DNA from: a virus
DNA: 64,000 bases
Virus record (IMG/VR): IMGVR_UViG_3300020172_001601
Span: 276,342-340,341 of that record
Reading direction: 5' to 3' (one strand)
The notes under the pieces were generated by a model. It did no database searches. It saw nothing but the letters and a program-made list of their open reading frames with translations, and was not told the DNA's origin. The stretch's first letter is position 1; each line of letters begins with the position of its first letter. Both the position numbers and the translations under genes were made by a program. This document shows, one piece after another, positions 42,701 to 64,000 of the stretch.

Positions 42701-45411
42701 CATCGCAAATCCTAAATGCGGCAAAGATTGTCAATGCAATGGCTGTTGTTGCCAAAAACATTGTTCCAATGATTAAGAATCTGGCTGCTGCGATTGCACT
42801 TGGAACGGATGCTTCTAGCTTCTTCTCGGAAGCACCAATTCCAAAAATCATTAGCAACAAAAAACAATTCGGAGAGTGGTTCCAGGCCATTGCCATCTTC
42901 ATGAGAGACGGGATTGTAAATCCGGTCAACAAGGAAATGGCTGGAGTTGACATCTCTGGTGCAGCGAAAACGATCACGGCTATGGCCAAGATTGCGGCGA
43001 ACATCGTCCCATTGATTAAGAATCTATCCGGTGCCATGAGTCTCATGAGCAGCCCGGCTGAACGCTATTTCGACACAGACTTCCCAATTGACAAGATTAT
43101 GGTCTACAAGGGCGAATTCGCCCTGTGGTTCAAGAGTATTGCCATCTTCATGAGAGACGGCATTGTGAATCCAATTCTCAATGAACTGCCAGAGCCTCGC
43201 ACCATCATGATGGCAGCTAAGATTCTGTCGGCCATGAGTCGCATTGTCACATTGATTCCTATTGTCATCAACAATATGGCTAACGGACTCATTCCTTTGA
43301 TTGACTCTGGCATGTCCATGAAGGATACAGCTAAAGAGAAGATGGAAGGAAAGACCAAGTTGTTTGGCGACTGGTTCACCAGCATAGCCGCCTTCATGCG
43401 AGATGGAATTATCGCTCCAATCTTGAATGAGCTTCCAGAACCTCGAACCATCATGATGGCAGCTAAGATTCTGTCGGCTATGAGCCGCATCTTCACCCTG
43501 TTGCCTTCAGTGATCTCCAAGTTGTCAGCTTTGTTTGTTCCACTGGATGCAAGCAAGTGTCTGAAGGATTCGCCTATTGGCATGTTGGCTGCTAATACAG
43601 ATATGTTCTCAGCGTGGTTCTATTCCATCACATCATTCGTGCGTGACGGAATCTTGTATCCAATCATGAACAATCTGCCTACAGCAGAAGAGATTACTGC
43701 TGGCATGAGCCAAATGAGCAATATGTCAAAGGGACTTGATGCCGCTGAACAAATTATTGCTTATGTCTCAGAGAGAATGAATAAGTTTTCAATCAATCCA
43801 TTCTGGATGATGATGGCAAGCTGGAAGGCTTCAATGTTTGGGTATGCCTTTATGAGCATGGCAAATGCCATCAATAACGGGATTCTTCAGCCAATGAAGT
43901 TGTTGCCGCCATCTTCTGAAATTGATGAAGTTGTGAATCAGCTTGACGGAATGGTTCAGGCACTTAACAAGGTCGAAGAGGTCTTGGGTGCTATGGACAT
44001 CGCCATGAAGTCGATTTCCAATTCTGGACTGGACTTCTCCGCTCTGGACAAGATTCCAATCCAGAAGATGGCAATGTTCGCATCGGCCTTGAAAGACATG
44101 ACTGCTGCCACAAGCATGGGCGGCGGTGCTGCAACTGGTGCGGGTGGCAGTGGTGTCGTAAATCCGAGCGACAAGGCTATTGAAACACAATTGTTGAGAG
44201 ATCAGTCAATTGCTCAACAATCAATGGCAAAATCTCTGAGCGAAATGGTTGTGGAGGCCCTGACTGGCGATGGTCTGTTTGTTCGAGACAGATTGAATTT
44301 CAAGGCTCAAAACGACATGATTAAGATTCAGCGGGACGAAGCCAAGTCTGCGTTGATGCCAACTGCCGCTGAATCTGCTGCTGGAATTAAGTCGGACTTT
44401 GGAAGTGGAGACAAGAAGTTAAGAGAAGAGTCTGAGAAGAAATTCAAGGAAAATCAGGCAAAGTCTAATCTACTGAAGCCTGCCATTAAATCTGTCAATC
44501 CTGCTCCTGCTGCGGGCAATGTTGATATGCGTCGTGCTTCTGAAAGCATGAGAGACACGCCGATGCAAAGAGCGTTGGGCGATGAAGTTCGTGAACGCCG
44601 TAGTCGAAATCCATACACAGATCGTCTTAAAGAAAGAAACGAAGCTCGTCGAATCAGAAGAGAGCAGGCTGGATTTGAAACTGGCGGGACAATCATGCCA
44701 TCTCAAGGTGGCAGCGTTCGTGGTTCTGCTGGCAGTCCTCGTGGGGAAGCTCATGGCCAAGGATTGATGACTGAGCAAGCTATGGCTAAAGCTATGGAGC
44801 GTCAAGCAAGAGAAGCACAAGGCGACCAGCCTATTGGTTACAAGTTGGCTAATGCAGCTAGTGCGCAGCAAATTGCAAACCAGGGAATGATGCCTTCGAT
44901 TAGCGCTCCTCAGATGGGAACATCTGAAACAGATGCTCTATCGGCTTTGAGCAGACTGGTTAACCAGCCAACATCTGCCAGCGGAATGATTGCTCAGGGG
45001 CCAATGAGTGTTGAGCCGATGTCTGTGGCGGGAGCCGGAGAGTCGCCAGCAAGCGTTCGACCTATTGCGCAAACATCACCAGCAATGCCAGACATGCACT
45101 CGGCAATTGCCGGAGAACGTGCGGCAACGTCACCAGTTAAAACGGAGATCACATCTCCTGAATTGGGTGCTATTGCATCTGAAGCTGGGGACCATAATGC
45201 GAAATTGGATACATTGATAACATTATTCCAGCAAGTTTTGACTGCTTTGAAGCCCACAAGCACTCCTATTACAAGTAGCGGTGGTGTTCCAGGTGACACA
45301 GCCACTAGAGAAGTTGTTCACAAGCCAGCAAATTACTTTAGAAACACAGTAGGCTTGGCTTCTCAAACTGCTGGAAAAGCAGCACTTAACTTAGGCCCAC
45401 AAACATCGTAA
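36073..45411 (+). CDS. Tape-measure protein, 3,112 aa
   Basis: ATG 36073. The size, place before the baseplate genes and long helical sequence identify it. Layout: charged N-terminus and Gly/Ser linker (to about residue 200), helical core, then three families of internal repeats. First, hydrophobic Ala/Gly segments of about 80 residues with TPAI-L-A--V signatures (about 38.7-40.6 kb). Second, a group of units with KxYVGAIVDIAxSIGSKLNPKQA (about 40.9-41.8 kb). Third, units around PIxKI-NKxxFxxWFxxIAxFMRDGIV (about 42-43.6 kb). The C-terminus is polar and disordered. By the usual 0.15 nm per residue, the tail would be about 460 nm. The hydrophobic units may deliver DNA through the cell membrane. 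Confidence 0.92.
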   Translation: MATAIDNLGRKIDSTNMSLGEIKALVGTMMKSKVGAARPVESKKEGVPQGDMGKVRELLEQYTKDFAKDMQEQKGFLSDVVGSLKDLVQKRLAKKAESKGQPKKEKKEKPFVSKEEKAMSKSSEGLYKTFAKKGSGYTHDIYVEKAIYELCNCLKGMTPATPSPAAGDGGAAGGGGSGGSTGGAGAAPAPGGGKKKEKTRMMGGLPIADDLAIMSYFIGQITNELAKVEQHILGFNALSEVFKGTIKQEREFVQGMRAISYETAGATKEAKGLMRSFEDIGATTKQTGVDRDVFQKSYIKALKHGIKDLKVASNIVKTQLNTEKQLGMEAGTLSEEFTNWNKAGRMSMGQIADMGRGMREVARNTGMTGDELAGVVKSSGEFISSLRNAATLTSAAAKNVIEIGVNAKKLGIESQMQPLLKAMSSSSNLILEASDQTRAFLLSAAGSVGRIDELMNGTILRSKAGIKDMAKGMDNMLKRFGVESMDAIDQLSDDAKMRLNVSLKATFGIELGELRSQYEALNEAGKGMAERLADINKKRQQNLTLEEKAALMEDERKLKASKNLEVLTALDEASKGAKDMNQALATFGKRRGEFEADLNALGQTWTSEADVARGAIQSAMDSVNAGLKKSGKQEIKIDSTAIEQALKDPAAMRELTGKIAKGEQELATAQKAQLDPMTDMQQSLSEINDNIRNFTNKGFSSLFNSLIGKIAVIGATIAGVIGGISLLAIGIISKIDSFSRVFKEMKDHGGPLKVLMGAILGRRDNSPDPAAEANDAASAGGKTTGKNTAATAVKDALAGLKKDDDQDIFPLMLKELQAIRQCICTDKAKTTADKASAQEKRDEKTRRRLLKNEVKSAKVGDNIQDRTDKLVDRQTVVAKAQKVPGTPSVEGFDIAGMMGAGKEMAKAAIGVAILGLGVVALGAAIVFLSAKIMKAFKLDIKTVLETAAVVGAVALAGGAIAAAGVVAFQALASDEMKGFTEKAKSSYPQVLKAAAALLLIGPAIVLLGAAVVALTGLILSKLGLSLGSVAETAGVVIAVAGVAGAMAAGASQFVECLDELKKNKTWNDIISKPGTLAKEIGKTALALLLVGGAIMVLGVALVKMGQVIMSVAGLDGSTAAKVGMQVAGLIVAAGAIAGAIIGASFGLKALGEFAKKSTGLVKDMAVGALALLIMTPAIVLLASAVVWMSKSIMSAFGMDSGTAAKAAMNIAELLLATGFIALAVIGASAGLIALGTLVTSLGTYTGGIGLLAAAGLMAAGAAALLIMTPAITALAAGVVYLAQQVMGSFGLDLGTAAKVAKDLAGVLMAAGFIALAVIGAAWGLGQLGALVWSGLIWPTVLLAGLGAIGLMALTPAIAALASSVIYMAQSVMKSIIDPSEAGKVAEALADVIGAAAEISLSVLGMGAALAALGLAMTTGVFWIMAVLAVMGAAAMLVLTPAVVALNTAIINMAQSVMKGSVSPEEAKMTSEALASILASAASISWSVIKSATTLGILGLLAAFSAVAWVITGAMYLGSKALQFLTPAVVHMANTIIQMAGGLMATGVSPAHGKEIAEALSSILSSAGNIADGVLGAVSSLSKLGLLSFFAGMIAGLMWMGVGALAVLAEPVKGYIGAVVDIAKSMGSTLNPKQAAEMAQGVADVLAACGDVTNRIMAAKEKLLSLPASTGFWAWLTGNGVTAMQNGVDSLTAIKKPIVNYVGAIVDIAQSIGSKLNPKQAVEMAKGVADILAACGAVTDEIMKAKDKLVSMSPSVAGRLWTWLTSSFMPSIEGGIDVLKKLEKPLTSYVETVIGVARSIGGKLDPRLATSMARGVADILNATGAVTDEIMKTKDRLLSIKSSQGFWIWASGIEDSMKAGVETLNKMKQPIMDYVGTIVGFARDMGSKVDIGSAKSMVKSLTAVSTIIELVSKVLNTLSEKIVPLTQGGWFSGSPIKQMTRAKGQMEVFFPAMVDLIRTIVDKVRGSMGDTKELKSAAKGLNAMAMILNAAMPSISIMSEKIAPLTQGGFFSASPVDKIKSAIPQFNGFFDSVSDFVNTIVASMTKIKDTTGLKEAAKKMTMLAVVLDSTSKAIGSLASMVGLMDDGFFTKSPITKIIENKTKFADYFGQIAEFVNTGIVYPINNVIPDAKKLQNASVIVLALARLLCGTKVTLESLAAVIGLMEPKWFFQKAPLQKIMDNKDQFKEWFIAIANFVNNGIVKPVNDEFKDPSQILNAAKIVNAMAVVAKNIVPMIKNLAAAIALGTDASSFFSEAPIPKIISNKKQFGEWFQAIAIFMRDGIVNPVNKEMAGVDISGAAKTITAMAKIAANIVPLIKNLSGAMSLMSSPAERYFDTDFPIDKIMVYKGEFALWFKSIAIFMRDGIVNPILNELPEPRTIMMAAKILSAMSRIVTLIPIVINNMANGLIPLIDSGMSMKDTAKEKMEGKTKLFGDWFTSIAAFMRDGIIAPILNELPEPRTIMMAAKILSAMSRIFTLLPSVISKLSALFVPLDASKCLKDSPIGMLAANTDMFSAWFYSITSFVRDGILYPIMNNLPTAEEITAGMSQMSNMSKGLDAAEQIIAYVSERMNKFSINPFWMMMASWKASMFGYAFMSMANAINNGILQPMKLLPPSSEIDEVVNQLDGMVQALNKVEEVLGAMDIAMKSISNSGLDFSALDKIPIQKMAMFASALKDMTAATSMGGGAATGAGGSGVVNPSDKAIETQLLRDQSIAQQSMAKSLSEMVVEALTGDGLFVRDRLNFKAQNDMIKIQRDEAKSALMPTAAESAAGIKSDFGSGDKKLREESEKKFKENQAKSNLLKPAIKSVNPAPAAGNVDMRRASESMRDTPMQRALGDEVRERRSRNPYTDRLKERNEARRIRREQAGFETGGTIMPSQGGSVRGSAGSPRGEAHGQGLMTEQAMAKAMERQAREAQGDQPIGYKLANAASAQQIANQGMMPSISAPQMGTSETDALSALSRLVNQPTSASGMIAQGPMSVEPMSVAGAGESPASVRPIAQTSPAMPDMHSAIAGERAATSPVKTEITSPELGAIASEAGDHNAKLDTLITLFQQVLTALKPTSTPITSSGGVPGDTATREVVHKPANYFRNTVGLASQTAGKAALNLGPQTS

Positions 45412-47799: not shown

Positions 47800-49986
47800 A
47801 TGTCATTAGCAAGACAAGATTATGTAGAGCTACTAGAACGTCGCATTGCTTCTCTTGAGAATCAAATCGGTGGAGTAGCATACAACATGAAATCAGTCGC
47901 AAGACAAGAGCTTGTGGCCAATGCTACCGTTGTAGAACAAGCAGAAATGCAATTCGGCATGTATACAGCGTTATGTATAGAAACAATTGACATTTGGAAG
48001 CAGAACCGAGTTCGCTTCTTTTCTCCTTTGTTCCACGATCAAAAGATGACCGTCAAGAAATTGCCGTGGGCAAGTCCAGTCTCTAATCTGGGCGGCTTCG
48101 ATGACTGTGGAGCCACTTGGGTTCCACCGGCTGGTTCGACGGTTTGCATCATGTTCGAGAACGGAAACCGTGCGTCCCCATACTACATCGGAACGACATG
48201 GCATAGAAACCGTGGTCCCGATGGGCAGCACAATTGGGGCTACAACATTGAAGAATACTACAAGATTTGGGACGGTAAACGCAAAGGGTATTTGGTTGGC
48301 CCCGACGATGGTTCTCAAGTATTTCCACCTTGGAATACAGAAAACTATAACGGGTTCGATCTGTCGTCTCTTGTTGACTTTGCCGACAACCCTGAAGCAC
48401 AAAAGTTAATCACCTATCCAAACATCTTTGGCATCAAAACCCCAGAGAAGCATTACATCAAGATGGTGGATGGTGATCCAAAGTGCAATAGAAAATGGAA
48501 GCGGTTTGAAATCATGTCCAGTTGTGGAAACTGGATCATGCTTAAAGACGATCACTTGCATTATGCAGGGCAGTGGGCGCACCCACAGTGCGGGGTTCCA
48601 GATGGAGAAACAAGTTGCGTAGAAGACGCAGACAATAGTTCTCAAGAAGACAAACTAAGGGGTGGATTCGGTATTCAAGGATTGAATACTGAGGTTCAGG
48701 GAGAAATCACAGTCAAGACTGTGGCTGATGCCGAAGAAGAAGCGAACACAACAGATATAACGCCAAAAACAGGAAAGAAGAAAGAAGAAGTTCCTTGCGA
48801 GGGCAAAAAGAGCAATAGCAAGATTATTGGTGGACACCCTTCTACTGGTGCGCCAAATACGAAACACTACAAGTCTCAGGTTGGAGCAAACCCATTCTTC
48901 AAGCATCGTCAAGAATGTCGTCCATACAAGGGACCACCAACTCCACAGAACAATACTTGTGATTTACCTCAAAGCGGCATTCAGATTATGTCGATTAGCG
49001 GACACACGTTCGTTATGGACGATTCTGTTGAGGAACCATCGGGAGAGCCAACTTGGGATAGAGAGTTTGATTTCGGTTGTAATGACCATTATGTGGGCCG
49101 AACGTATTGGAAGTCTGCCACGGGCCATCTCATTGAGATAAGTGATGTGGAAAGTCCTCCAGGCGATGATGGGGCCAAATTGCGTGGCAAAGACAACTAT
49201 ATCAAGATTTTGACTGCCACTGGCAACAAAATCGAGTTAAACGATCACACAGAGTCCCAGAAGGACTGTCCTGGTTGCCCGCCAAACATTGCCGGTTCTG
49301 AACGTGGCATTCACCTAAGAAGCACTAGCAATCACACCATTGATATGGTGGATGAGACGAATGAGCAATGCGCTCCATGTCGTATGGAAGGCGGCGTGCC
49401 GATTCCGAAGGCGAAGAAGGCTTTCGTTAGAATCCGCACAGGGTATGGTCTGGAGATGAAGTATCATGATGATGATAGCCAAGAAGAGACAAAGCAACAA
49501 TACATTCAAATATTCTGCCCTCAAAAAGACAACGAAGAACGTGGTCCGCACATTCACAGGTATCAGGAAGCCCCATCGGGTCCAGGTCTTGTATTCCTGC
49601 GTGTAGGTGGAAACTACATTGTTTCAACTTACGACAACCACATTACCATTGTGGGCGACGAAGAGAAAAATCCGTCAGATTTGATGGAGATAGTAACCAG
49701 AACCAACCTCGTATATACCAAAGACGTATACCTCAACATCACCGACAAACTCCATCTGTTTTATGCCAAGGAAGTCATATTGCTACTGGCCGGTGAGGAT
49801 TGCAGTCCTCCTCCGGGTTGCGGGGGTTGTGGTGGTCCAGACCCGTGCTTCGGAGCCGTTATTGTTTACGACTTCTGTACTGGCTGCGTGAGGATTAGTG
49901 ACCGTGTATTTGCCAGCACATCTGCAAAGGCACAACAATTGTCAATCTTCCAGTTGGCACCGTTCATGAAATGCCCACCATGCTAA
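47800..49986 (+). CDS. Baseplate spike (gp5/VgrG-like) protein, 728 aa
   Basis: ATG 47800 behind AAGGAG. N-terminal OB-fold-like domain (WASPVSNLGGFDDCGATWVP and GSTVCIMFENGNRASPYYIG), then long beta-strand repeats with KRGI-like turns (e.g. RGIHLRSTSNHTIDMVDETN) consistent with a trimeric beta-helix, and a Cys-rich C-terminus (PPPGCGGCGGPDPC) that could bind a metal at the tip. It punctures the cell envelope on contraction. Confidence 0.78.
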   Translation: MSLARQDYVELLERRIASLENQIGGVAYNMKSVARQELVANATVVEQAEMQFGMYTALCIETIDIWKQNRVRFFSPLFHDQKMTVKKLPWASPVSNLGGFDDCGATWVPPAGSTVCIMFENGNRASPYYIGTTWHRNRGPDGQHNWGYNIEEYYKIWDGKRKGYLVGPDDGSQVFPPWNTENYNGFDLSSLVDFADNPEAQKLITYPNIFGIKTPEKHYIKMVDGDPKCNRKWKRFEIMSSCGNWIMLKDDHLHYAGQWAHPQCGVPDGETSCVEDADNSSQEDKLRGGFGIQGLNTEVQGEITVKTVADAEEEANTTDITPKTGKKKEEVPCEGKKSNSKIIGGHPSTGAPNTKHYKSQVGANPFFKHRQECRPYKGPPTPQNNTCDLPQSGIQIMSISGHTFVMDDSVEEPSGEPTWDREFDFGCNDHYVGRTYWKSATGHLIEISDVESPPGDDGAKLRGKDNYIKILTATGNKIELNDHTESQKDCPGCPPNIAGSERGIHLRSTSNHTIDMVDETNEQCAPCRMEGGVPIPKAKKAFVRIRTGYGLEMKYHDDDSQEETKQQYIQIFCPQKDNEERGPHIHRYQEAPSGPGLVFLRVGGNYIVSTYDNHITIVGDEEKNPSDLMEIVTRTNLVYTKDVYLNITDKLHLFYAKEVILLLAGEDCSPPPGCGGCGGPDPCFGAVIVYDFCTGCVRISDRVFASTSAKAQQLSIFQLAPFMKCPPC

Positions 49987-49996
49987 TGGAGATTAA

Positions 49997-50419
49997 ATGA
50001 GATTATTCCTCGGCGTACCATATCCTATCGTAAAGAATGCAAGGGGCTTCCTTTATTCTCAGGATGGGATTGACCAGATTAAATCCGATATGTTGGTTCT
50101 TTTGTTGACCAATCCAGGCGAACGGGTGATGAACCCGACTTTCGGCACTCCACTGCGCAAGTTGATTTTCGAGCCTAATGATGTTGCACTAAGACTTCAG
50201 GCAAAAAACATGATAATCAACTCAATTAAGAAGTGGGAGCCACGAATTGCCGTCACGAACATTGAAGTTAGCTCGAAGATTGACAAGAACTCCTTAAACA
50301 AAGCAGAGCAAAAACAAGACCTTGAGCATATTTTGTTCATCCGAATTATTTTCGTGGACCCACAAAACATTAAAGAAGTGCAAGAATTACTGCTCGAAGT
50401 GCCACTAGGGGGAACATAA
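49997..50419 (+). CDS. Baseplate wedge protein gp25-like, 140 aa
   Basis: ATG 49997 behind GGAGATTAA. Length and NPGERVMNPTFGTPLRKLIFEPN with KKWEPRIAVTNIEV (the EPR motif) fit the gp25/lysozyme-like wedge family. Directly precedes the gp6-like gene, whose start overlaps its stop (TAATG). Structural role in initiating the sheath. Confidence 0.85.
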   Translation: MRLFLGVPYPIVKNARGFLYSQDGIDQIKSDMLVLLLTNPGERVMNPTFGTPLRKLIFEPNDVALRLQAKNMIINSIKKWEPRIAVTNIEVSSKIDKNSLNKAEQKQDLEHILFIRIIFVDPQNIKEVQELLLEVPLGGT

Positions 50420-51975
50420 TGGCGACCAATAACTGCCCGTTTGACATTACACCATATACTCAGTCGCAAATTATCACGACTCCGAACATCTTTAATTTGA
50501 ACTATACAAATCAAGATTTCTGGTCGATGAAAACCCGATTGATTGAATTCACAAGACAGAAGTTTGACAAGGAATTTTCAGACTTCGTAGAGTCGTCGCT
50601 TGCCATTATGCTCATCGAAAATTGGGCGTTTTTGGCTGATACTCTGTCTTTCAAAATGGACCAAATTGCCAATGAAGTATTCATTGACACCGTTACAGAA
50701 GCAGAAAACGCATTTCGGTTGGCAAAGCTAGTTGGCTTTAAGCCACAGCCACCTATTGCTGCAAGAATGCTATGGACTGCGAGTCTGAATAATCCGGTTT
50801 TGACTGATGTGGTCATTCCTGCTCCGTTTGATTTGAAAATCAGCACTGGCAACAAACAACTATCAATTGAACTATTCCCTGCTGACGCTGACAACAACCC
50901 TATCTTCGACCAGGATATTTTGATTCCTGCCGGTGGCGTGGTGAATGCCAGTATCGTCGGATTGGAAGGCATTACCCGCCTGTTGGAAACAAATGGCAAT
51001 GGAACAGTAGCCCAGACAATCACACTAGAAGAATTCCCTGTAATCTACGACTCGGTTCGAGTGCAGGTCGATGGCGTATTGTGGACTCAGGTTGATTATT
51101 TCACCGACTCTCAGCCACGAAGAGAATACCGACTGGAGTTCAATTCCAATTATCAAGCATTCGTGATTTTTGGAAACAATCGAGCCGGATTGATTCCTTC
51201 TCAGGGAAGCAAAATTTTAATCACTTACCGCAAGGGTGGTGGTTCAATTGGAAACATCGTCAGTGGAACCATTGAAAAACAAACCATTGTCAATGTTCCC
51301 GGACTCTCTTTCAGTGTGCCTATTGGTTTAAGAAATTACACCAAAGGTGAATTTGGTTATGACGGCGACACGATTGAAGACATCAGAAATAAATTGCCAG
51401 CCTGGGTAAGAGCGCAAAATCGAGCAGTCACCGGATTAGATTACAAGACGTTGACCGATCAGTTTGCTACGGCTTACCAGGGTCAAATCGGTAAATCCAC
51501 AGCAGTATTAAGAAACTATGGTTGCTCTGGCAACATCGTTGACTTGTATGTTTTGGCATTGAATGGAAATGACAAGTTGCAGGAAGCAAGCAATGAGCTA
51601 AAGGTAGAATTAGAGAACTACATAGATTCCTTAAAGATGTTTACAGATCACGTCTGTATTCGTGATGGGCAAGTAGTGGTTGTCGATACAGGACTTGATG
51701 TTGTGCTGGATCGGTTTTACCGAAAGTTTGAAGATGAATTGAGAATCAAAATTCAAAGAAGGCTTGATTCTTTCTTTGCATTGAAAAATTGGGAATACGG
51801 TCAGACCCTAAGAGATTCAGACATGATTAAGTCTCTTTCCGACTTGAAAGAGATTCAGAGATACGAAGTAAATTTCGTTACGAACGATGCCGACAATGGT
51901 GGGAGCAGAGTGACAACTAAGTTCTACGAAATCATCCGGCCCGACACAACGGATATTACATTCACATACGAGTAA
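50419..51975 (+). CDS. Baseplate J/gp6-like wedge protein, 518 aa
   Basis: ATG 50419. A helical start, beta domains, RAQNRAVTGLDYKTLTDQF in the middle and DTGLDVVLDRFYRKFEDELR near the end follow the baseplate J (P2) / T4 gp6 layout. It dimerises to form the wedge ring around the hub. Confidence 0.82.
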   Translation: MATNNCPFDITPYTQSQIITTPNIFNLNYTNQDFWSMKTRLIEFTRQKFDKEFSDFVESSLAIMLIENWAFLADTLSFKMDQIANEVFIDTVTEAENAFRLAKLVGFKPQPPIAARMLWTASLNNPVLTDVVIPAPFDLKISTGNKQLSIELFPADADNNPIFDQDILIPAGGVVNASIVGLEGITRLLETNGNGTVAQTITLEEFPVIYDSVRVQVDGVLWTQVDYFTDSQPRREYRLEFNSNYQAFVIFGNNRAGLIPSQGSKILITYRKGGGSIGNIVSGTIEKQTIVNVPGLSFSVPIGLRNYTKGEFGYDGDTIEDIRNKLPAWVRAQNRAVTGLDYKTLTDQFATAYQGQIGKSTAVLRNYGCSGNIVDLYVLALNGNDKLQEASNELKVELENYIDSLKMFTDHVCIRDGQVVVVDTGLDVVLDRFYRKFEDELRIKIQRRLDSFFALKNWEYGQTLRDSDMIKSLSDLKEIQRYEVNFVTNDADNGGSRVTTKFYEIIRPDTTDITFTYE

Positions 51976-51985
51976 GGAGAAGGTT

Positions 51986-54900
51986 GTGGCGATACTGACA
52001 ATAAATGACAACCCGTCTATTTCGGACACGATTGTATTCACTTTGTATACACCGGATGCCCAAGGCTGCTTCACGTCCAATCCTTACAAAGTCAATCGTC
52101 TTGTCATCTATTATGTAGAACGTGATTTCACCAGTGGTAACTTAAATGAGTATCAAAACAAGACCTATGACTTAGCAAAACTAAAGGCTGCTGAAGTTGC
52201 CGAGGCCACAGCTTGTGCCACGCCAAATGATGCAAATATAGCAGAAGCCAAAAGACTTCGAGCCATTGCAGAAAGCAATGTGACGGTTTCGCCATTCTTC
52301 TTCAATGAAGCATCTCCAGTTCACATCGTAGGCAATGATAGTTTCCCGGCATGGCTCTCCACTGATCTGGACAACACCTTTGTCGATTTAGTTGATGGAG
52401 TCTTTGGTCAATACACCTACACATGGCAACCACAAGGTATGCGTGAAGGTGACTATTTCATTTGTTGGACTTGGACACCGTTGATTGCTGGCGACAGCTT
52501 GTCGGCCCATGTTAGGTTTACCCTAAAGGGCGACACACAAACCACCACCAGCATTCCATCGCACTTTACCAATCCAGATAAATATGAAACGCTGCTTGAG
52601 CGATACACTCCCGATATGTTCAAGATGGTCATATCAGAAAATGACCGTACACCTGACGTATTGGATAAATTCAATAAAGCAGTTGCGTTGGGATTCAACA
52701 CCTTAGAAGACCTGGGCAATCAGATTGTCGATCTTCAAGATGCCAACTCAATTCATGAAGCCTTAATCCCATATTTGTCCAATTTGTTTGATCTCAAACT
52801 GAAGACAGACGACCCTACACGTTGGAGAGGTCAAATCAAACGTGCCGTTCCGTTATACAAAATGAAAGGAACAAAAAAGGGTTTGGCCGAAGCGTTAGAA
52901 CATGCAGCTATCACCATGATGGGATTGACCCAATTATGGGAGGTCACTTCATCTTACACATGGCAAGAAGTGGTCAAGTTCGATGGAACAAGCGATACCT
53001 TTGAGCTTGAAAAAGTTGCATTGCCTATTGATTACGACAATTTTGAATTGTGGCTACGACCTGCGGACAGCACGACATGGATTCCTTTAAGTTCTGATTA
53101 TGTTGAGTTTCTAACTAGCGATGGCACAACCTATATGACTTGGGCAGGAAGCGGCCTGTCTATTGAGCCTATTGATCTATTAGAGGGAGATGAAATCAGG
53201 GTTCTGTACAAGTATGCAGAAGTTGCCGATCCCACCACCCAAGCAATAGAAAACTATGTTAGGTCATTGCCCTTAATGGACCAACGAGATGAACGAGATC
53301 AAGTTTATCCTTTGAAGAATTGGAATGTCCGAGTAATCCCTGAAAATGATTCGATGTTTGACTTAGTGATTCCAACTCGCCATCCATACCATGAATTTTT
53401 GGTATATGGAAAGGTGCGAACTGAATTCCCATATAGTGAAAACATCTACAACATGGAAGAATACAACGGCAGTATTCGCAACTCTAAATTGCCTTGCGAT
53501 ATTGACCGCAACTTCGTTGATCCATGCACTGCATGTATTAGCAGCAACTACAACATCGACTTGGAAATTGAAAACTTATCAGATGATCGCATTCTTGAAG
53601 CAAAGGAAGTTCTTCGAGAATTTTCGCCGTTTCATGCTGTGCTGCACACTTTCAATTTTATTGGTGGCATCAACGAATTCGTTGAATCTCCAATCGAAGA
53701 AGTAGAAGCCTTAGTATCCATGCAAGGCAGTGAGTTTGTTATTGCTGGTGAGGGCCAACAATACTTCAACCGAATCATGAGATTGGTTGAGACGACTGGC
53801 ATTCTTAGAGATGAACTGGCAGACAAAACGGTTGCTGTGGCAACTACCACGGGAACAGCATACAACGATGAAGTTGTATTGTTCTGTCCTGACTTGCAAT
53901 TAAATCGAATTGGAATGGCATTAGATGGCAGTGCCACAATGACTGTGTTTGCTCCGTCGCTTCTCGCTGGCGGCTACACGGTAGACAATCCGAGGGGTAA
54001 TGCTGCATCGGTTTCTGGTGCCATCAATGTAAACTTAATGGTGACAAGCAATCAGGCTTTTACTTTTGACATCGACAATTTGGTGTTGGATGGAACACTG
54101 TGCAACATTGCCCAAGACAACATCTTTGTCATTTCAGATGCTACTCAAGATTTTGGACTGCTGGGAACCCAATCAACATTTGACGTAGATCAAGGAACTG
54201 CAATAACTGCATGGAAAGTTTTGATTCCGGCTTATAGCGGCACGCCATATGTGATTAAAAACGTACAACCAGATGGAAGTTTGGTTTTAACCAATGATGG
54301 CACGTTGCCTAGCAATAATGCTTCCAATGTAACTTACAGTTTGATTCGCAACCTGACAACAATTGTCACAAGTACAGTTGGTGAGTTTAACGTCACTAAG
54401 CGTGGTCGTGTGACTGCTTTGAGTAGTTCAGTGTTGCCAATTCGCAATGCAATCCGACTGGATAATACATTCCAAAAGATCAACTTGGAAGAATACCCAA
54501 TTCTTGAATTTGTAGATGGCACAACTGACCAGTATTACATCGGCAAATATTATGACAATATGGGCAACAACCGGGGCGACATCAACAACACCAACTTGCG
54601 GGTCAACCAAAAAGTTGCCGAAAAACAAGTTGGCTACCTGCATTATCGAGGCTTAAAGCTACAGATGGCAGGCAATTTAGAGTCCAGTCTGGGAATCCAG
54701 AACGGTGCTAACTCTCTTGTAGTTGTGGACGAAGGTGTTGAAAACAATGAATTTAGAGAGAATTTCGTTGTTGTTATTGGGTCTGACAGCTACTTCATGG
54801 ATCAAATAGACGGCGATAATCCATCAGGATTTACGACGTTTACATTGTCTGGCAACCCTTATTGGTGGAAAACATTAAATCTGGGTGGAACATCCGTCAG

Positions 54901-55150
54901 CGTGACTATTTACAAATACACAAAGAATGGTGCAACTATAGCTGGACAGCAATTCAATTTGCCCGCACATACTTTCCGTACATTGGATCGGGCTGGACGC
55001 CCTGTGATTGATCGAGTGGATCAAGACGGGACGGTAACTGGATTAAGTCTGCCTGAAGGGAATCAAATTAACGAATTCGTTCAACAAACTGAGGGGATCA
55101 CCTTTAGCATTGAATATGCTGACGGAACGACCGAACAAGGAGAGATATGA
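51986..55150 (+). CDS. Large tail protein with gpI-like domain, 1,054 aa
   Basis: GTG 51986 behind AAGGAGAAG. N-terminal Ig-like region, then residues about 205-310 (LLERYTPDMFKMVISENDRT, then DDPTRWRGQIKRAVPLYKMKGTKKGLAEAL) matching the KGT motif of P2 gpI/T4 gp7-type tail proteins. A long beta-rich C-terminal half with Asp/Asn/Gly turns follows and looks like fibre or adhesin modules. It probably joins the wedge to the fibres. Confidence 0.7.
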   Translation: MAILTINDNPSISDTIVFTLYTPDAQGCFTSNPYKVNRLVIYYVERDFTSGNLNEYQNKTYDLAKLKAAEVAEATACATPNDANIAEAKRLRAIAESNVTVSPFFFNEASPVHIVGNDSFPAWLSTDLDNTFVDLVDGVFGQYTYTWQPQGMREGDYFICWTWTPLIAGDSLSAHVRFTLKGDTQTTTSIPSHFTNPDKYETLLERYTPDMFKMVISENDRTPDVLDKFNKAVALGFNTLEDLGNQIVDLQDANSIHEALIPYLSNLFDLKLKTDDPTRWRGQIKRAVPLYKMKGTKKGLAEALEHAAITMMGLTQLWEVTSSYTWQEVVKFDGTSDTFELEKVALPIDYDNFELWLRPADSTTWIPLSSDYVEFLTSDGTTYMTWAGSGLSIEPIDLLEGDEIRVLYKYAEVADPTTQAIENYVRSLPLMDQRDERDQVYPLKNWNVRVIPENDSMFDLVIPTRHPYHEFLVYGKVRTEFPYSENIYNMEEYNGSIRNSKLPCDIDRNFVDPCTACISSNYNIDLEIENLSDDRILEAKEVLREFSPFHAVLHTFNFIGGINEFVESPIEEVEALVSMQGSEFVIAGEGQQYFNRIMRLVETTGILRDELADKTVAVATTTGTAYNDEVVLFCPDLQLNRIGMALDGSATMTVFAPSLLAGGYTVDNPRGNAASVSGAINVNLMVTSNQAFTFDIDNLVLDGTLCNIAQDNIFVISDATQDFGLLGTQSTFDVDQGTAITAWKVLIPAYSGTPYVIKNVQPDGSLVLTNDGTLPSNNASNVTYSLIRNLTTIVTSTVGEFNVTKRGRVTALSSSVLPIRNAIRLDNTFQKINLEEYPILEFVDGTTDQYYIGKYYDNMGNNRGDINNTNLRVNQKVAEKQVGYLHYRGLKLQMAGNLESSLGIQNGANSLVVVDEGVENNEFRENFVVVIGSDSYFMDQIDGDNPSGFTTFTLSGNPYWWKTLNLGGTSVSVTIYKYTKNGATIAGQQFNLPAHTFRTLDRAGRPVIDRVDQDGTVTGLSLPEGNQINEFVQQTEGITFSIEYADGTTEQGEI

Positions 55151-56889: not shown

Positions 56890-57426
56890 TTGAAAATGTA
56901 TAGCCACAAAGACCTTAAATGTGGTTTTGTGATACTCTGCCCTGAGCATACCGTAGGGCTGCTTAAATGCACTGTGAATTCAATCAAGTGCCGCTACCCA
57001 GACTTGCCGATGGTATGCGCTACAGATGACTCGGCGACCGCCGCAGACATGAAAGAATTAAAGGCTATTTGCCCAACCTACAAGGGCAAATCGACCTTCT
57101 CTTCTCTTATCAATGTTGGAATGAGACACGCCCCAGCCGAATGGAGCTTCATCCTTTGTGCCGGAGTTACCGTAAACTGGAAAATGGACGAGCGATTCGC
57201 CTACTTCACAGAAAGCGAAAAAGACATCTTGTTTCCTATTGTCGAAAAGAAGGCCAACTTTGTTGACGCCACCCTCAATGGTCTTTTCATTAACAAAAAG
57301 ACATGGAAAGAAGTTGGCGATATGGACAATGACGGCACCTTTGAGGAAGTTAAAATTCTCTGGGGCATAAGAGCCATTGATAAAGGCGTCCAATTCAAAG
57401 CCATTGCAGGCAGCAAAGTCTGCTAA
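56890..57426 (+). CDS. Glycosyltransferase-like protein, 178 aa
   Basis: TTG 56890 has AGGAG 7 bases upstream; ATG 56896 is too far from it. LKCGFVILCPEHTVGLLKCT resembles the start of GT-A enzymes seen in T4-like phages, with ATDDSATAADMKELKAI and a metal-site-like region. It is short for a full enzyme (250 or more), so it may be partial or a minimal type. It could modify the fibre or host envelope. Confidence 0.5.
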   Translation: MKMYSHKDLKCGFVILCPEHTVGLLKCTVNSIKCRYPDLPMVCATDDSATAADMKELKAICPTYKGKSTFSSLINVGMRHAPAEWSFILCAGVTVNWKMDERFAYFTESEKDILFPIVEKKANFVDATLNGLFINKKTWKEVGDMDNDGTFEEVKILWGIRAIDKGVQFKAIAGSKVC

Positions 57427-57944
57427 ATTAGGCCATACCGATACCGCCACCGACGATTCTCGGTGTGCTTCCAGTCTACTACCTCTTGTAGATAGACGTA
57501 TAAATCCTCCCACGATCCGAACATGCAGGCATGGGGAATAAACCCATAATACCAGAGCGGGACGTGCTGCTTGCCCTGTGGACAAACCAGTAGGGTGGGT
57601 TTTTTGTTGTTGCTGCTAAAGATGATCTCATGGTGAGTGCCAGTTGTCGGCACCCCTTTAGGCAGATATGACACCAAGAAATCTGACCGTTCGACCATAA
57701 TCAGGTCTTTGGAAACAAAATCTTTAGCAATCCTGGTCATTGTCTCGAAGTCGCATTTTTCACGAGCTTCCGTTAATGTCGGAACCCATTGCTGCTTAGG
57801 GTCCGCAAAGGGGTCAAATAGATTGACCCCAAATCTCTCAATTAGAACCTTCGTCGGCTCCGTCCTCCAATTATGGTGGGTGGAGTCGTTTTCTATAGGA
57901 CCGCCCAAATAACATCGGGCATCTTTCAGTGGGTTTATTTTCAT
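57423..57944 (-). CDS. Nucleoside 2-deoxyribosyltransferase-like protein, 173 aa
   Basis: ATG at 57944. CYLGGPIENDSTHHNWRTEP and LFDPFADPKQQWVP match the N-terminal signature of this family, with a Glu in GTHHEIIFSS where the catalytic residue is expected. The enzymes transfer a deoxyribose between bases or hydrolyse nucleotides; some phages use relatives in base modification or nucleotide salvage. Lone leftward gene in the structural module, overlapping the previous gene's end by 4 bases. Confidence 0.65.
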   Translation of the reverse strand: MKINPLKDARCYLGGPIENDSTHHNWRTEPTKVLIERFGVNLFDPFADPKQQWVPTLTEAREKCDFETMTRIAKDFVSKDLIMVERSDFLVSYLPKGVPTTGTHHEIIFSSNNKKPTLLVCPQGKQHVPLWYYGFIPHACMFGSWEDLYVYLQEVVDWKHTENRRWRYRYGLI

Positions 57945-57998: not shown

Positions 57999-58703
57999 AT
58001 GTCAACCGAAAACAACAACAAATTGTTCGCAGAAATGGATGAAGCATTGAAGCATGAAGTAGCACAAAGGCACAGCTATTTCCAACTCAAATACTTCGTA
58101 ATAGGCAAAGAGCCTACTGTACAGTCAAAAATGTGGCAGTGTCTTCGAGAATTGAAGACACGCCGGGAGTCCCTGGGAGCCATTGAGCTTGAGGTAGAAG
58201 ACTCAAAAGACAAGCTGGAACTACTAGATATTTCTATCGAAAAGATTGATCTCGCACGTCCTAATGCCGACGAACTCACCCAGCGGGAGAGCGACATCAG
58301 AATTCGACAGATCGAGAGACAGAAGAAGGCTGCTCAGGCGAACCTACTACAACTCGCCGAACGTAAAAAATGGCTGGAGGAGGAATCTCGATTCTTCTTG
58401 GAAACATACAAAAACCTTCTACGGATTGAGCCTCTGAAGCATTTTGATGATCTCGACTCCCAGAAACAATATTGGGGCGAGCGACTGGCTCAGAAACTTA
58501 ACCTCAAGATGTTAACTCAAAATCAACTAGATACCGAACTGGTGGAAACCATTGTCGCCTTACCAGATGACATGCCCATCAAAAAACAAGCTCTTGGAAC
58601 GCTGGAACTGCGACATGCCAATATGGTTCATCAATTGAAATCAACGATGCAGCATATCGGAGCAATCGAAGGCAAGCAAGAGGAAAAAAATAAGGAGAAC
58701 TAA
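57999..58703 (+). CDS. Coiled-coil protein, 234 aa
   Basis: ATG 57999 behind AAAAAGGAGCC. Long charged helices (RRESLGAIELEVEDSKDKLE, LLQLAERKKWLEEESRFFLE) over most of the length. Possibly a fibre connector or chaperone. Its stop overlaps the next start (TAATG). A longer frame upstream overlaps the deoxyribosyltransferase gene. Confidence 0.7.
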   Translation: MSTENNNKLFAEMDEALKHEVAQRHSYFQLKYFVIGKEPTVQSKMWQCLRELKTRRESLGAIELEVEDSKDKLELLDISIEKIDLARPNADELTQRESDIRIRQIERQKKAAQANLLQLAERKKWLEEESRFFLETYKNLLRIEPLKHFDDLDSQKQYWGERLAQKLNLKMLTQNQLDTELVETIVALPDDMPIKKQALGTLELRHANMVHQLKSTMQHIGAIEGKQEEKNKEN

Positions 58704-59770
58704 TGGCCGTCACAAGAGTTGCATCTACCGATACAGGATATACGACCGGATCATTGTCGTTATTCCCCCAAGCCAAAGACTCGAAATTCCAGCTATATCA
58801 GGCGAGCAACAATTGCCAGACGACATTGAAACAAAGCCTCACTTATGCTGGCAAATATATCGTCGTAGAAGACAACAGCCTCTTCCCCGATAGTGGAATA
58901 TTGAGAGTTGGACCGCCACCTGGAAAACCGGGTGCTGCGGAGATGATATATTACGAAACAAAAACCCCTGGCGTATTTCGCAACCTCATTCGAGGCTTTG
59001 CTGGATCACGACAGAACCCCTGGCCTGTAACGAGTTACGTCACCAACGCCGTCTTTGCGGAACATCACAATGCCACCAAAGATGCGATCATTCAGATCGA
59101 GCGAGACTTGGGAACAGAAGACTTACCGGACCCATTATCGCTTAATGGCATTCTGAAGGCCCAGGAGAATCGGTTTTTGTCTCCACGGCCTTTATTCCGT
59201 GCATATCCATTCAAAGGCGCACCACCGCTGAAGGTTAGATTTCAAAACTTTAGCACGGGACCATTGATTCGATATTTATGGGATTTTGGAGACGGCACAA
59301 CCTCAATCGAGAAATCGCCAACCCATACCTTCCAAAAAGAGGGCATATACACGGTCAAGTTGAATATTATCACGTCTCTGGGTGCGCAGGGTGTTATCAC
59401 AAAGACTAACTATATCACTGTGTCTGAGGAAGAAAAACAACCTTTTTTCTATGTGACGCCGAACCAGGGTTATTCAGTTCAAACAGCAGAAGCAATGACT
59501 GCTGGCGGAAACCCAACCGATCCAACTGTATTTACATATGTGGATCAAACGGATGGCGACATTATCCAAAGATATTGGATTTTCGATGGGCCGGGAAAAC
59601 ATGATGGGCAAGATGTTCCCACTCAGAGTATTCCAGAATACGACCCGAACATTCATACAACCAGTTTTGTATATGACAGTCCTGGAGATTATGAGCCTTC
59701 TTTGTTGATCTTATTTGAAAGCCAAAGATTACAAAGAGCGTTCTTGAAAGACAAAATTACGGTGACATAA
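58703..59770 (+). CDS. PKD-domain fibre-type protein A, 355 aa
   Basis: ATG 58703 in TAATG. First of three related genes: YVTNAVFAEHHNATKDAIIQ with IERDLG occurs near residue 118-136. It is followed by a PKD-like domain with YLWDFGDGTTSIEKSP and a second beta domain. PKD modules are typical of adhesins. Adjacent paralogues follow directly with one-base overlaps. Confidence 0.72.
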   Translation: MAVTRVASTDTGYTTGSLSLFPQAKDSKFQLYQASNNCQTTLKQSLTYAGKYIVVEDNSLFPDSGILRVGPPPGKPGAAEMIYYETKTPGVFRNLIRGFAGSRQNPWPVTSYVTNAVFAEHHNATKDAIIQIERDLGTEDLPDPLSLNGILKAQENRFLSPRPLFRAYPFKGAPPLKVRFQNFSTGPLIRYLWDFGDGTTSIEKSPTHTFQKEGIYTVKLNIITSLGAQGVITKTNYITVSEEEKQPFFYVTPNQGYSVQTAEAMTAGGNPTDPTVFTYVDQTDGDIIQRYWIFDGPGKHDGQDVPTQSIPEYDPNIHTTSFVYDSPGDYEPSLLILFESQRLQRAFLKDKITVT

Positions 59771-62040
59771 TGACAATACCAGTAGCCTCTACATATCCGA
59801 CCACAATTGACACCAATCAGAACTTGTATCAAGTTCATGACTCGCTCAGGGTACGTCTAATTGAAGACTACACTCCAGGCGATACTTCAATCACTGTGTT
59901 CGGCGATGAACCTACCATGCGGGCATTTAATGCTACTGGCATCATTACGCTCACAGAGCAGTGCAGCGAGCCAGAATACAGAGCCATTTCCTTTTACTAT
60001 GGTTCTCGGACATTAACCACGTTCGATCAACTAGAACTATTGCCTGGATTCGTGGATGTAGCAAAGCCAAAGAGCTTGACCAATGTGACCCAGAACGTCA
60101 TGTCGGTGCATCATAACTCCCTGAAGGATGCTTTGATCGCCATTGAACGCTTTGCTGGCAAAAAAGGAGAAGTGGCTTTAAGACCATTAGAAGGAACAAT
60201 GGAGCAAAGAATCAATTACCTTCGTAAATTGGCTTTGGCTCCGAAAGCATGGTTCAGAGTAAATAAGACCATAGGACTTGCCCCATTAACTGTGGAGTTT
60301 GAAGATCAGAGCTTCCGATTAGGTGGTGATGGCACTTCGCACTCAATTGAACATTTATGGGACTTTGGTGATAACAGTGGGCCTTCCATCATCACCATCA
60401 GCGAAGACACAGAAGTTCCATCTAACATCAGTGATGTCTTAGTAAAAGACACAGATGGTGGAATAATCAGAAAAACATACACAAGACCTGGAATTTACAC
60501 TGTGACTTTGACCGTCACAAATGATTTCGGTTCAGACAGTGTTACATTTGACGACATTATCACAGCCCGGTTCCCGGCTCCAGATTACGCAGTTGTTAAC
60601 TTTGTTCAAAGAGCAGGACAAATAGTAACTCCTGGATCGCCAATTGGTGGACCATACACAACAACGCCGCCTAAAATTCGTGCGGCTTCAAACACCATCA
60701 TTGATTTGGCAATCTCACCTGGAATCAATTCGTTTACAGGAAGAACATACGGCGGCGAAGCAGTAGATGGAACAAACACTCCCATTGACCCTATTCAGGA
60801 TTACACATGGTCCTTGTCTGACGACTTAATTCACAGCAATGCTTCAAGTGCAAGAGCGGTATTTAGCGTCGGTGGACTCTATGACTTAAATCTACGAGTA
60901 GATACAGAATTTGGTGCTTACAGAATTACAACTTACGAAGACAGCTTTGATATTGTCGAAAAAGTAAACCTTTGGTTGTGGACTTACAATAACACCAATT
61001 CTGTGTCATCTTCTGAATTTGGAATGATAAGTGAAACATTCAAAGCCAAAGGTGCAGGCAGTCTTTCATTGGGCGTTGATGATTCGTTCTTGACGGGACA
61101 GTTAAACGAAACACAACAAAAACGTGAATTCCACAGAAATAATGGATTCGCACAAAGAGGGTCAGCAGCATCGGGGGCTGGTGGTGTCGGACTACTGTAT
61201 TGGGCCAGCGGCAGAAGCAGCGTTGACAGTCCAACGACTGAAGAAATTCTAATGTCTGAATACAACGGATTTGTTGAAACGTACACATCTCGACCTTCCG
61301 TTTCACGTCCTTGGAATTGGATTAGCTTTGCATCAGCAGACAGTCTTTATTTCTTTTTAGGTGGAGTGACTGGTTCTATTGCTCCAGATACGTCTCCGAC
61401 AAACCAAGTCAAAAATAGGATGCTCTTAAATGATCTTTCTGTTTCTTCTTCAACAATAGCTAATGCCAATTACAAAAACGGCGCTGATGAATTGACGAAT
61501 AATGAGGTAACATACAATATTTCTGGTGAGCCGCTTCAAGGACACATGAGCGTTTATCGCTCAACATGGCACGAGGAGACAGGATATTTTTTGCGAAATG
61601 AAGGGGTGGGCGATTTCTTCAGAATCAAGAGCTTTTACAAAACCAGCGGAAATTCCGCTGAACCATTCCAAGACATTAGAAAGCTGCCTGACATGATTGG
61701 CTCTGCCAAAGTGGAAGGACAATTGGTGTCTTTGAGCCAAGGCGTGTATTTCTTCAGTAATTCTGGCGCTGTGGCTGCTTACAACCCGACGAGTGGAATT
61801 TGGGCGACTGGCGGTCCAGGAGCCAATTCTTCATCATTCCGACTACTACAAGATACTGATGTTGTTGGCTTTGATGAGCCAAATCAAACATTCCTGGCGG
61901 CTTCAGACGGGGATCGCACGGCGTATTTGAGCTTTGATTACAGCCCGAAGGCATTCATTAAGTTCAATGAGTCAGACACCACATTTAGTGGGGTCACTTC
62001 ACGTCCAGCGGGGACGCAGTGGCAAATGTCGATCTTTTAA
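59770..62040 (+). CDS. PKD-domain fibre-type protein B, 756 aa
   Basis: ATG 59770. QNVMSVHHNSLKDALIAIER near residue 115 repeats the paralogue motif. A PKD-like domain (LWDFGDNSGPS..., then TYTRPGIYTVTLTVTNDFGS) is followed by additional beta modules and a C-terminal region rich in Ser/Thr/Gly. Probably a receptor-binding fibre component. Confidence 0.72.
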   Translation: MTIPVASTYPTTIDTNQNLYQVHDSLRVRLIEDYTPGDTSITVFGDEPTMRAFNATGIITLTEQCSEPEYRAISFYYGSRTLTTFDQLELLPGFVDVAKPKSLTNVTQNVMSVHHNSLKDALIAIERFAGKKGEVALRPLEGTMEQRINYLRKLALAPKAWFRVNKTIGLAPLTVEFEDQSFRLGGDGTSHSIEHLWDFGDNSGPSIITISEDTEVPSNISDVLVKDTDGGIIRKTYTRPGIYTVTLTVTNDFGSDSVTFDDIITARFPAPDYAVVNFVQRAGQIVTPGSPIGGPYTTTPPKIRAASNTIIDLAISPGINSFTGRTYGGEAVDGTNTPIDPIQDYTWSLSDDLIHSNASSARAVFSVGGLYDLNLRVDTEFGAYRITTYEDSFDIVEKVNLWLWTYNNTNSVSSSEFGMISETFKAKGAGSLSLGVDDSFLTGQLNETQQKREFHRNNGFAQRGSAASGAGGVGLLYWASGRSSVDSPTTEEILMSEYNGFVETYTSRPSVSRPWNWISFASADSLYFFLGGVTGSIAPDTSPTNQVKNRMLLNDLSVSSSTIANANYKNGADELTNNEVTYNISGEPLQGHMSVYRSTWHEETGYFLRNEGVGDFFRIKSFYKTSGNSAEPFQDIRKLPDMIGSAKVEGQLVSLSQGVYFFSNSGAVAAYNPTSGIWATGGPGANSSSFRLLQDTDVVGFDEPNQTFLAASDGDRTAYLSFDYSPKAFIKFNESDTTFSGVTSRPAGTQWQMSIF

Positions 62041-62090: not shown

Positions 62091-64000
62091 GTGGCAAACT
62101 ACTTCCCGCCTACACCTGTTTATCCGAAAAACTACGATAGTGATTACACGCTGTTCTTGGTCTACAACACCAGCGAAACAATCACGACCGAGGACAATGC
62201 GCCTTGGTCGGCAGAAATTGCCATCAAGCCTGTGGCCCCGGATAAGGACGAATTGTGGGCGACCAATGGATTTGCCAATATTGATGGCGAATTGTTCTAC
62301 TACGACGATGTTGGCTATAACATTTATGGAAAAATCAACAAGCTAAAGAGATGCGCACGCAACATCGGTGGCACTCACACAAAACATAATCGAGCAGGAT
62401 CAGAAGTTCGTGGATTTGTTATTGCAGAACACCACAATCAAATTGTGGATGCGATCATAAAGATCGAAGACTTTGTTGGAGCCAACTTCACAGATGAGAA
62501 AGCGACGTTAGATTGGCGAATTCGTAATCTGCAACAGCTTCCTGTAATTTTCGATGACTTTAGTTGTCCTGACGTATCTTTTGACTTCTTTATCGTTAGT
62601 GATGACCCTGCGACGGGCATTGTCGCACAATACACAATTGTTATTGATGGAGTGTTCACCAGTTATCGTTTGGACTTTGGAGACGGAGAGTTTACGACTA
62701 CCTCAACCAGAGGCACGCACCGCTACGCACCAAACGCAACGATTGACCCGATCATTACGATTGCTAATTCAAAATGTACCATTGTACAAACGCCGATTGA
62801 AAGAACGGTTGCTACAGAGCCACCGAATCAGACCACCCCAACAAGATTCGAGATCAAAATCCCAACGATCCCGAATATTCCACCTTTCAATCCACCAATA
62901 CCACCAACGCCGTCCAATATTGTGACGCCGCCTCCAATTGTGTTCCCATGTTTAGACATTGGGCCAATTGGACCAATTAACATACCATCGGTTATTGTCA
63001 TTGATCCGCCAATCAACTTGCCGTCGATCATCGAGATTGTAACGCCATTCAGCTTACCATCTTTGATTGAGATCACGCCAATTGATTTGCCAACACTGAT
63101 TACCATCACGTCAGTTAACATCCCGACTTTGATTAACTTCGGGCCAGTGAACATCCCGACTTTGATTAGCTTCGGGCCAGTGAACATCCCGACTTTGATT
63201 AGCTTCGGGCCAGTGAATATCCCGACCTTGATTAGCTTCGGGCCGGTAAACATCCCGACTTTGATTAACTTTGGTCCAGTGAACATCCCGACTTTGATTA
63301 ACTTCGGGCCGGTAAACATTCCGACTTTGATTAACTTCGGGCCGGTAAACATTCCGACGCTAATCAACTTCGGGCCGGTAAACATTCCGACGCTAATTAA
63401 CTTCGGACCAGTGAACATTCCGACGCTAATCAACTTCGGGCCGGTAAACATTCCGACCTTGATTAACTTCGGGCCGGTAAACATTCCGACGCTAATTAAC
63501 TTCGGACCAGTGAACATCCCGACCTTGATTAACTTCGGGCCGGTAAACATCCCGACGCTAATTAACTTCGGACCAGTGAACATCCCGACCTTGATTAACT
63601 TCGGGCCGGTAAACATTCCGACTTTGATTAACTTTGGTCCGGTGAATGTTCCGACTTTGATTAACTTCGGGCCGGTGACAGTGCCAACACTAATCAACTT
63701 CGGACCAGTAAATATTCCGACTTTGATTAACTTTGGTCCAGTGACCATTCCGACTTTGATTAACTTTGGTCCGGTAACAATACCATCCACGATTAACTTT
63801 GGTCCGGTAACAATACCATCCACGATTAACTTTGGTCCAGTGACATTACCATCCACGATTAACTTTGGTCCGGTAAGTGTTCCATCCACGATTAACTTCG
63901 GGCCGGTAAGTGTTCCATCCACGATTAACTTCGGGCCGGTAAGTGTTCCATCCACGATTAACTTCGGGCCGGTAAGTGTTCCATCCACGATTAACTTCGG
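62091..64000 (+). CDS. PKD-domain fibre-type protein C with 11-residue repeats (partial)
   Basis: GTG 62091 behind AAGGAC; the frame is open to the end of the window (at least 636 codons), so the 3' end is missing. It opens with ANYFPPTPVYPKNYDSDYTL; VIAEHHNQIVDAIIKIEDFV is the third copy of the paralogue motif; YRLDFGDGEFTTTST is PKD-like. From about residue 270 a Pro/Ile-rich stalk begins, grading from imperfect 12-residue units (NLPSIIEIVTPF) into perfect 11-residue units NIPTLINFGPV and then STINFGPVSVP. Probably a fibre shaft. The reverse-strand open frame here is only its shadow. Confidence 0.8.
   Translation, partial: MANYFPPTPVYPKNYDSDYTLFLVYNTSETITTEDNAPWSAEIAIKPVAPDKDELWATNGFANIDGELFYYDDVGYNIYGKINKLKRCARNIGGTHTKHNRAGSEVRGFVIAEHHNQIVDAIIKIEDFVGANFTDEKATLDWRIRNLQQLPVIFDDFSCPDVSFDFFIVSDDPATGIVAQYTIVIDGVFTSYRLDFGDGEFTTTSTRGTHRYAPNATIDPIITIANSKCTIVQTPIERTVATEPPNQTTPTRFEIKIPTIPNIPPFNPPIPPTPSNIVTPPPIVFPCLDIGPIGPINIPSVIVIDPPINLPSIIEIVTPFSLPSLIEITPIDLPTLITITSVNIPTLINFGPVNIPTLISFGPVNIPTLISFGPVNIPTLISFGPVNIPTLINFGPVNIPTLINFGPVNIPTLINFGPVNIPTLINFGPVNIPTLINFGPVNIPTLINFGPVNIPTLINFGPVNIPTLINFGPVNIPTLINFGPVNIPTLINFGPVNIPTLINFGPVNIPTLINFGPVNVPTLINFGPVTVPTLINFGPVNIPTLINFGPVTIPTLINFGPVTIPSTINFGPVTIPSTINFGPVTLPSTINFGPVSVPSTINFGPVSVPSTINFGPVSVPSTINFGPVSVPSTINF
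63114..64000 (+). repeat. Tandem 33-bp repeats, at least 26 copies
   Basis: From GTTAACATCCCGACTTTG the sequence repeats every 33 bases with synonymous and a few amino-acid variants. The last five copies before the window end are almost identical to each other (GTAAGTGTTCCATCCACG type), showing recent local duplication. The unit encodes NIPTLINFGPV and its STINFGPVSVP-like variant. It continues past the window. Confidence 0.95.

Follow-up and report, generated by a model that had tools for sequence, protein, structure and literature searches.

A probable tail-fibre family of huge phages with conserved ends and a lineage-specific repeat rod

The window analysed here, comprising the last 64 kb (64,000 nucleotides) of a 340,341-bp IMG/VR viral contig (G000:C1:276342-340341), ends within a gene encoding a long tandem array of 11-residue units. 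The product is probably a tail fibre attached to the baseplate of a huge phage with a contractile tail, anchored at one end and extended by an oligomeric stalk of units sharing the motif hP..h.h (hydrophobic-Pro-x-x-hydrophobic-x-hydrophobic), with the length of the stalk being changed through the turnover of units. The protein and its relatives have a common anatomy, the units are constrained in their amino acids, one pair of relatives differs in length by exactly one unit and the rods of different lineages diverge greatly. The family is judged to be one of length-variable phage fibres, with conserved ends and a lineage-specific rod.

Anatomy of the repeat protein and its relatives

The repeat gene comprises the following features, all on the forward strand:

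62091..64000 (+): repeat-protein open reading frame (ORF), GTG start, 636 codons, 3'-open at the contig end
62091..62540 (+): N-terminal domain with a conserved AEHHNQ motif, a predicted attachment domain with a weak likeness to the N-parts of two upstream PKD proteins
62551..62805 (+): PKD-like domain with an RLDFGDG motif
62840..63116 (+): proline-rich linker and the initial degenerate rod units, at spacings of 11 and 12 residues
63117..63974 (+): 26 complete 11-residue (33-nt) units, consensus NIPTLINFGPV
63975..64000 (+): partial 27th unit (26 nt), then the contig end

As the window end is also the contig end, the assembly breaks off within the array, meaning that 26 units represent a minimum and that the gene lacks its 3' end. 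An exact pattern search with the unit at the contig end found no continuation of the array.

A sequence-only reading of this DNA had reported at least 26 copies of the unit at 33-bp intervals, which agrees both with the 26 complete in-frame units counted from 63117 and with the output of TRF (period 33, 26 copies, score 790). Identity at a lag of 33 nt over 62880-64000 is 0.76, whereas 500 shuffles averaged 0.25 and peaked at 0.30. The sequence NIPTLINFGPV is found unchanged in 14 units, the others being variants such as NIPTLISFGPV, TIPSTINFGPV and SVPSTINFGPV, and the window rod contains 31 instances of the hP..h.h motif, 28 of these at a spacing of 11, against 5.9 expected from composition. 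The same reading described a gradation from degenerate units to near-identical copies at the end of the array. Degenerate units do indeed lie ahead of the array, at about 62980-63116, but the gradation is not smooth, with units near 63678-63875 among the most divergent of all, and at the end of the array identity at the DNA level extends over no more than the last three complete units. An antisense ORF of 386 residues (62828-63988, -) overlaps the array; this is probably mechanical, since the period is divisible by three and an open frame is therefore repeated.

Relatives on more than 50 IMG/VR contigs show the complete protein architecture, with 37 loci matched by the whole protein, 54 by its N-part and 22 by the C-part of a relative (overlapping sets). 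Common to them are an N-terminal domain with a PKD-like part, in which HHNQ and DFGDG are invariant, a proline-rich rod, and a C-terminal domain of ~200 residues that is also conserved and mostly finishes near CVAIVPC. Complete relatives span 602 to 1352 residues counted from the match start, including rods of about 180 to 905 residues, and the rod unit is lineage-specific, for instance FGPAPTIPTSIT, VVPDIPTEIT, DDLPTTIT or FTPPDIPTVIT, with the strongest periods mostly 5 or 10-14 residues. Hence both the length and the unit of the rod vary widely between lineages. One relative ~48% identical overall (L014) has NIPSIINFGPV, a unit near that of the window, and the rods of three others (L029, L033 and L034) form a composite higher-order repeat including IDIQVCLPTLINFGPIP blocks and GEWLPSLI insertions. 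Ten relatives each have 7-13 occurrences of hP..h.h in their C-terminal 200 residues, where about one is expected; as the motif is enriched in both regions, the C-terminal domain seems to share its type of building unit with the rod. This domain was not found elsewhere on the window's own contig, in a search of which an empty answer shows little.

Among 50,697 GenBank phage records, the sole relative was found in LR756511.1, an unannotated 595 kb sequence from an uncultured phage, and the family had no cultured member among the records searched. This homologue is complete, at 34% identity for the N-part and 35% for the C-part, and likewise has a repeat rod, but with the unit SFDCISFCxPP; the record assigns it no function. 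A further relative, with 71% identity in the N-part, lies on a contig within a Neisseriaceae MAG (L115) and also ends within the rod; it is probably a mis-binned phage contig, and so provides only a weak hint as to the host.

Gene neighbourhood

The genes upstream of the repeat ORF include a baseplate module and two PKD proteins:

47800..49986 (+): spike protein, Phage_base_V OB domain
49997..50419 (+): baseplate wedge protein, gp25-like
50419..51975 (+): baseplate wedge protein, gp6-like
51986..55150 (+): Tail_P2_I (gpI-like) baseplate protein
58703..59770 (+): PKD protein of 355 aa, N-terminal part weakly related to the repeat protein
59770..62040 (+): PKD protein of 756 aa, N-terminal part weakly related to the repeat protein

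In phage P2, the genes V-W-J-I are followed by the fibre gene H. With spike, gp25-like, gp6-like, gpI-like and two PKD proteins lying upstream, a fibre gene is expected at the position occupied by the repeat gene, which is thus encoded beside baseplate genes as tail fibres are. The N-part shares 22% identity with those of the two PKD proteins (E 2e-07 and 1e-08, single comparisons). The earlier proposal of a fibre stalk therefore gains support from gene order and from the full-length relatives, though short of proof, and a fibre role is probable on the basis of gene order and architecture. Counting against it is the conservation of the C-terminal end of the family, unlike the usual variable receptor-binding tip, and in the one relative inspected downstream (L008) a fibre chaperone was not recognised. 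In that relative, an MptE-like protein directly follows the fibre gene (L008:10715-11578, E 2.6e-06, below the cut-off) and a Volactin-family actin-like protein is encoded further downstream (L008:14075-15079, E 6e-64).

Elsewhere in the window, a 3112-residue ORF ahead of the baseplate genes (36073-45411, +) has no PHROG match and is possibly the tape measure protein, judging by position only. A nucleoside 2-deoxyribosyltransferase-like protein is found inside the tail module on the opposite strand (57423-57944, -; below the Pfam cut-off). The window also encodes a phage tyrosyl-tRNA synthetase (24900-26000, -; phrog_9270 E 8e-59, Pfam tRNA-synt_1b E 1e-53) and a phage tRNA nucleotidyltransferase with a PolyA_pol head domain (29957-31573, -; E 1.5e-20), and ARAGORN found zero tRNA genes within it.

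Fold of the rod and comparison with known shafts

The sequence-only reading knew of no named shaft motif with this unit, and accordingly no Pfam, PHROG or NCBIfam family covers the rod, no PDB sequence matches it, Foldseek searches of the PDB and BFVD gave no meaningful match for it, and no description of the NIPTLINFGPV repeat was found in the open literature searched. PHROG matches to the family are weak and scattered, each PHROG family being matched by one of 35 relatives. WSN (PF02206) was rejected as a candidate, as its E-value of 2e-08 is a sum over repeats of which no single stretch passes. The PKD profiles (PF18911/PF00801) score the window protein at 16.2 bits, under the cut-off of 27, and match 13 of 35 relatives at E<=0.01 (best 3e-05). 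AlphaFold models the PKD-like region with a pLDDT of about 85-94, for which Foldseek returned 1l0q, 6aem and 4jgu at a probability of 1.00 (TMt 0.15, 0.53 and 0.56, respectively), with no E-value <0.001. Profile searches of the PDB gave only marginal PKD/collagenase matches (E about 0.4) and no match for the C-terminal domain. With regard to a shared N-terminal attachment part, the best viral fold matches reached an E-value of 1.7e-04 but had TM-scores of 0.1-0.2.

In single-chain AlphaFold models, much of the N-part is well modelled, in blocks of 84-94, whereas the rod has one strand of 3-4 residues per unit at a pLDDT of about 57-67, and the C-terminal domain modelled with a few units has a mean of 52 and is nearly devoid of secondary structure. 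The beta-solenoid for which the sequence-only reading had suggested structure prediction was thus not predicted with confidence as a monomer. As a stable monomeric solenoid is normally predicted more confidently, an intertwined oligomer is favoured; the low confidence would fit an obligate oligomer but also disorder.

The adenovirus shaft repeat is ~15 residues long, and the window's unit 11. In the triple beta-spiral shafts of adenovirus and reovirus, short repeats combine hydrophobic positions with turns at Pro/Gly (PMC7565637), but the unit has no detectable sequence relation to PDB chains. The triple-stranded beta-helix of T4 gp5 is a short-repeat tail shaft with a length that can be changed by adding units (PMC4576200); its motif is the 8-residue VxGxxxxx, distinct from the 11-residue hP..h.h unit, and there is no sequence match. 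The delta beta-bracelet fibre of Orsay virus is also built from short repeats, each a strand plus a loop, and has a hydrophobic core (PMC7565637), although this fibre, from a nematode virus, is pentameric, has the consensus (V/L)x2Vx4V and does not match the window rod in sequence. Hence the rod corresponds to none of the three in repeat length or motif. Tandem BACON repeats of crAssphage, found in a probable phage tail protein, arose by duplication (PMC6949934), but these are Ig-like domains in few copies, unlike the dozens of 11-residue units found here. The rod may also resemble the Pro/Ile-rich tails of mycobacterial PPE-MPTR proteins, a family that did not appear in the Pfam and NCBIfam scans. 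That these huge-phage fibres have a new oligomeric shaft fold based on an hP..h.h unit of ~11 residues, and tune the length and surface of their stalks by unit-by-unit turnover while the ends stay constant, is a tentative and rather doubtful proposal.

Turnover of the array and alternative readings

Adjacent units of the window array differ at 46% of synonymous sites (pS 0.46) and 2.5% of nonsynonymous sites (pN 0.025), and all pairs of units at a pS of 0.586 and a pN of 0.098 (pN/pS 0.17); the units are constrained as protein, with their codons free to vary. By comparison, the N-parts of the window protein and a close relative (L039) have a pS of 0.18, indicating that the bulk of the array is not freshly copied. 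The earlier description of a recent expansion is consequently not supported for most of the array, as exact consecutive DNA copies are limited to units 2-3 (63150-63215) and the last three complete units (63876-63974). When compared unit for unit in order, the window array and that of the same relative have a pS of 0.63, well above that of the N-parts, indicating either the replacement or shifting of units since the split or a faster evolution of the array. Inter-repeat pS in other arrays of the family ranges from 0.16 to 0.66 (several at a 22-residue period).

The expectation of rapid length variation has one direct case in its favour. Two relatives (L012 and L013) share 99.7% identity across 13.5 kb, their alignment showing five mismatches and a single 33-nt gap. 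No aligned base differs between their repeat ORFs, which are exactly one in-frame unit apart. Conversely, eight other groups of near-identical ORFs have zero length difference, though some of these may be re-assemblies of the same material. A more diverged pair (L096 and L097), with about 93-95% identity across most of the sequence they have in common, have different dominant units, PPSFPTVISFT and PPDIPTVITFT.

An array inflated or collapsed by short-read assembly, with neither the copy number nor the last identical units being real, is improbable. The window's own contig stops within the array, and of the 54 contigs with an N-part match, 21 end inside the repeat ORF compared with four starting <=2 kb upstream; however, synonymous differences tell most units apart, and rods of equal length were assembled on contigs from three metagenomes (L059, L060 and L081). 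Still less credible is that the repeat acts as DNA, in the form of an origin, recombination or packaging site, with the protein incidental. Such a role could account for so long and regular a tandem repeat, yet residues are kept while synonymous positions vary freely, the single observed length change is in frame, and the arrays of relatives encode other units.

Two readings accept the rod as a functional protein, and both are unlikely, if less so. That it is a flexible, largely unfolded proline-rich spacer joining two folded ends, rather than a rigid stalk, would be in keeping with the two prolines among the 11 residues of the unit, the low AlphaFold confidence in both the rod and C-terminal domain, and the wide variation in rod sequence and period. 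The content of Phe, Ile and Val is nevertheless unusually high for a disordered linker, the hydrophobic positions of the unit are kept, with hP..h.h continuing through the rod and C-terminal domain, and the model places one short strand, albeit at low confidence, in each unit. Slightly less likely again is that receptors or glycans are bound by the surface of the rod itself, with unit turnover generating diversity in binding rather than length. This would suit unit sequences that are wholly different between lineages while both ends are conserved, but the units within one array are nearly identical as protein and constrained, and no lectin or carbohydrate-binding family was matched.

In the favoured reading, that of a baseplate-attached fibre, the N-terminal domain would anchor the protein to the baseplate, the stalk would consist of a rod of stacked ~11-residue hP..h.h units, which probably has to intertwine as an oligomer, most likely a trimer, in order to fold, and the conserved C-terminal domain, apparently built on the rod motif, would end the stalk. 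In-frame units may be gained, lost or replaced through slippage or recombination, leaving frame and stacking intact, so that the length and surface of the stalk could change with both ends of the protein fixed. If this is right, the family is one of fibres with a possible new shaft repeat, and the conserved ends and replaceable middle make stalk length a testable trait.

The regularity of the array would account for the many contigs of these phages that end at the repeat gene, which matters for closing their genomes. In metagenome 3300032462, one contig ends (L003) and another begins (L093) in the unit GPISFGPTPTL, and the two look like one genome split at the array. A gp23-type capsid gene lies ~30-36 kb downstream of the repeat gene on the same strand in two relatives, and the absence of a full-length gp23 match from the window's own contig fits truncation of that contig at the array. 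Elsewhere on the same contig, in a region with no Rfam match, a standalone ORF of 85 residues (G000:C1:124977-125141; L119:1463-1720) aligns with positions 1-55 of the T4 gp23 capsid profile (E 2e-15).
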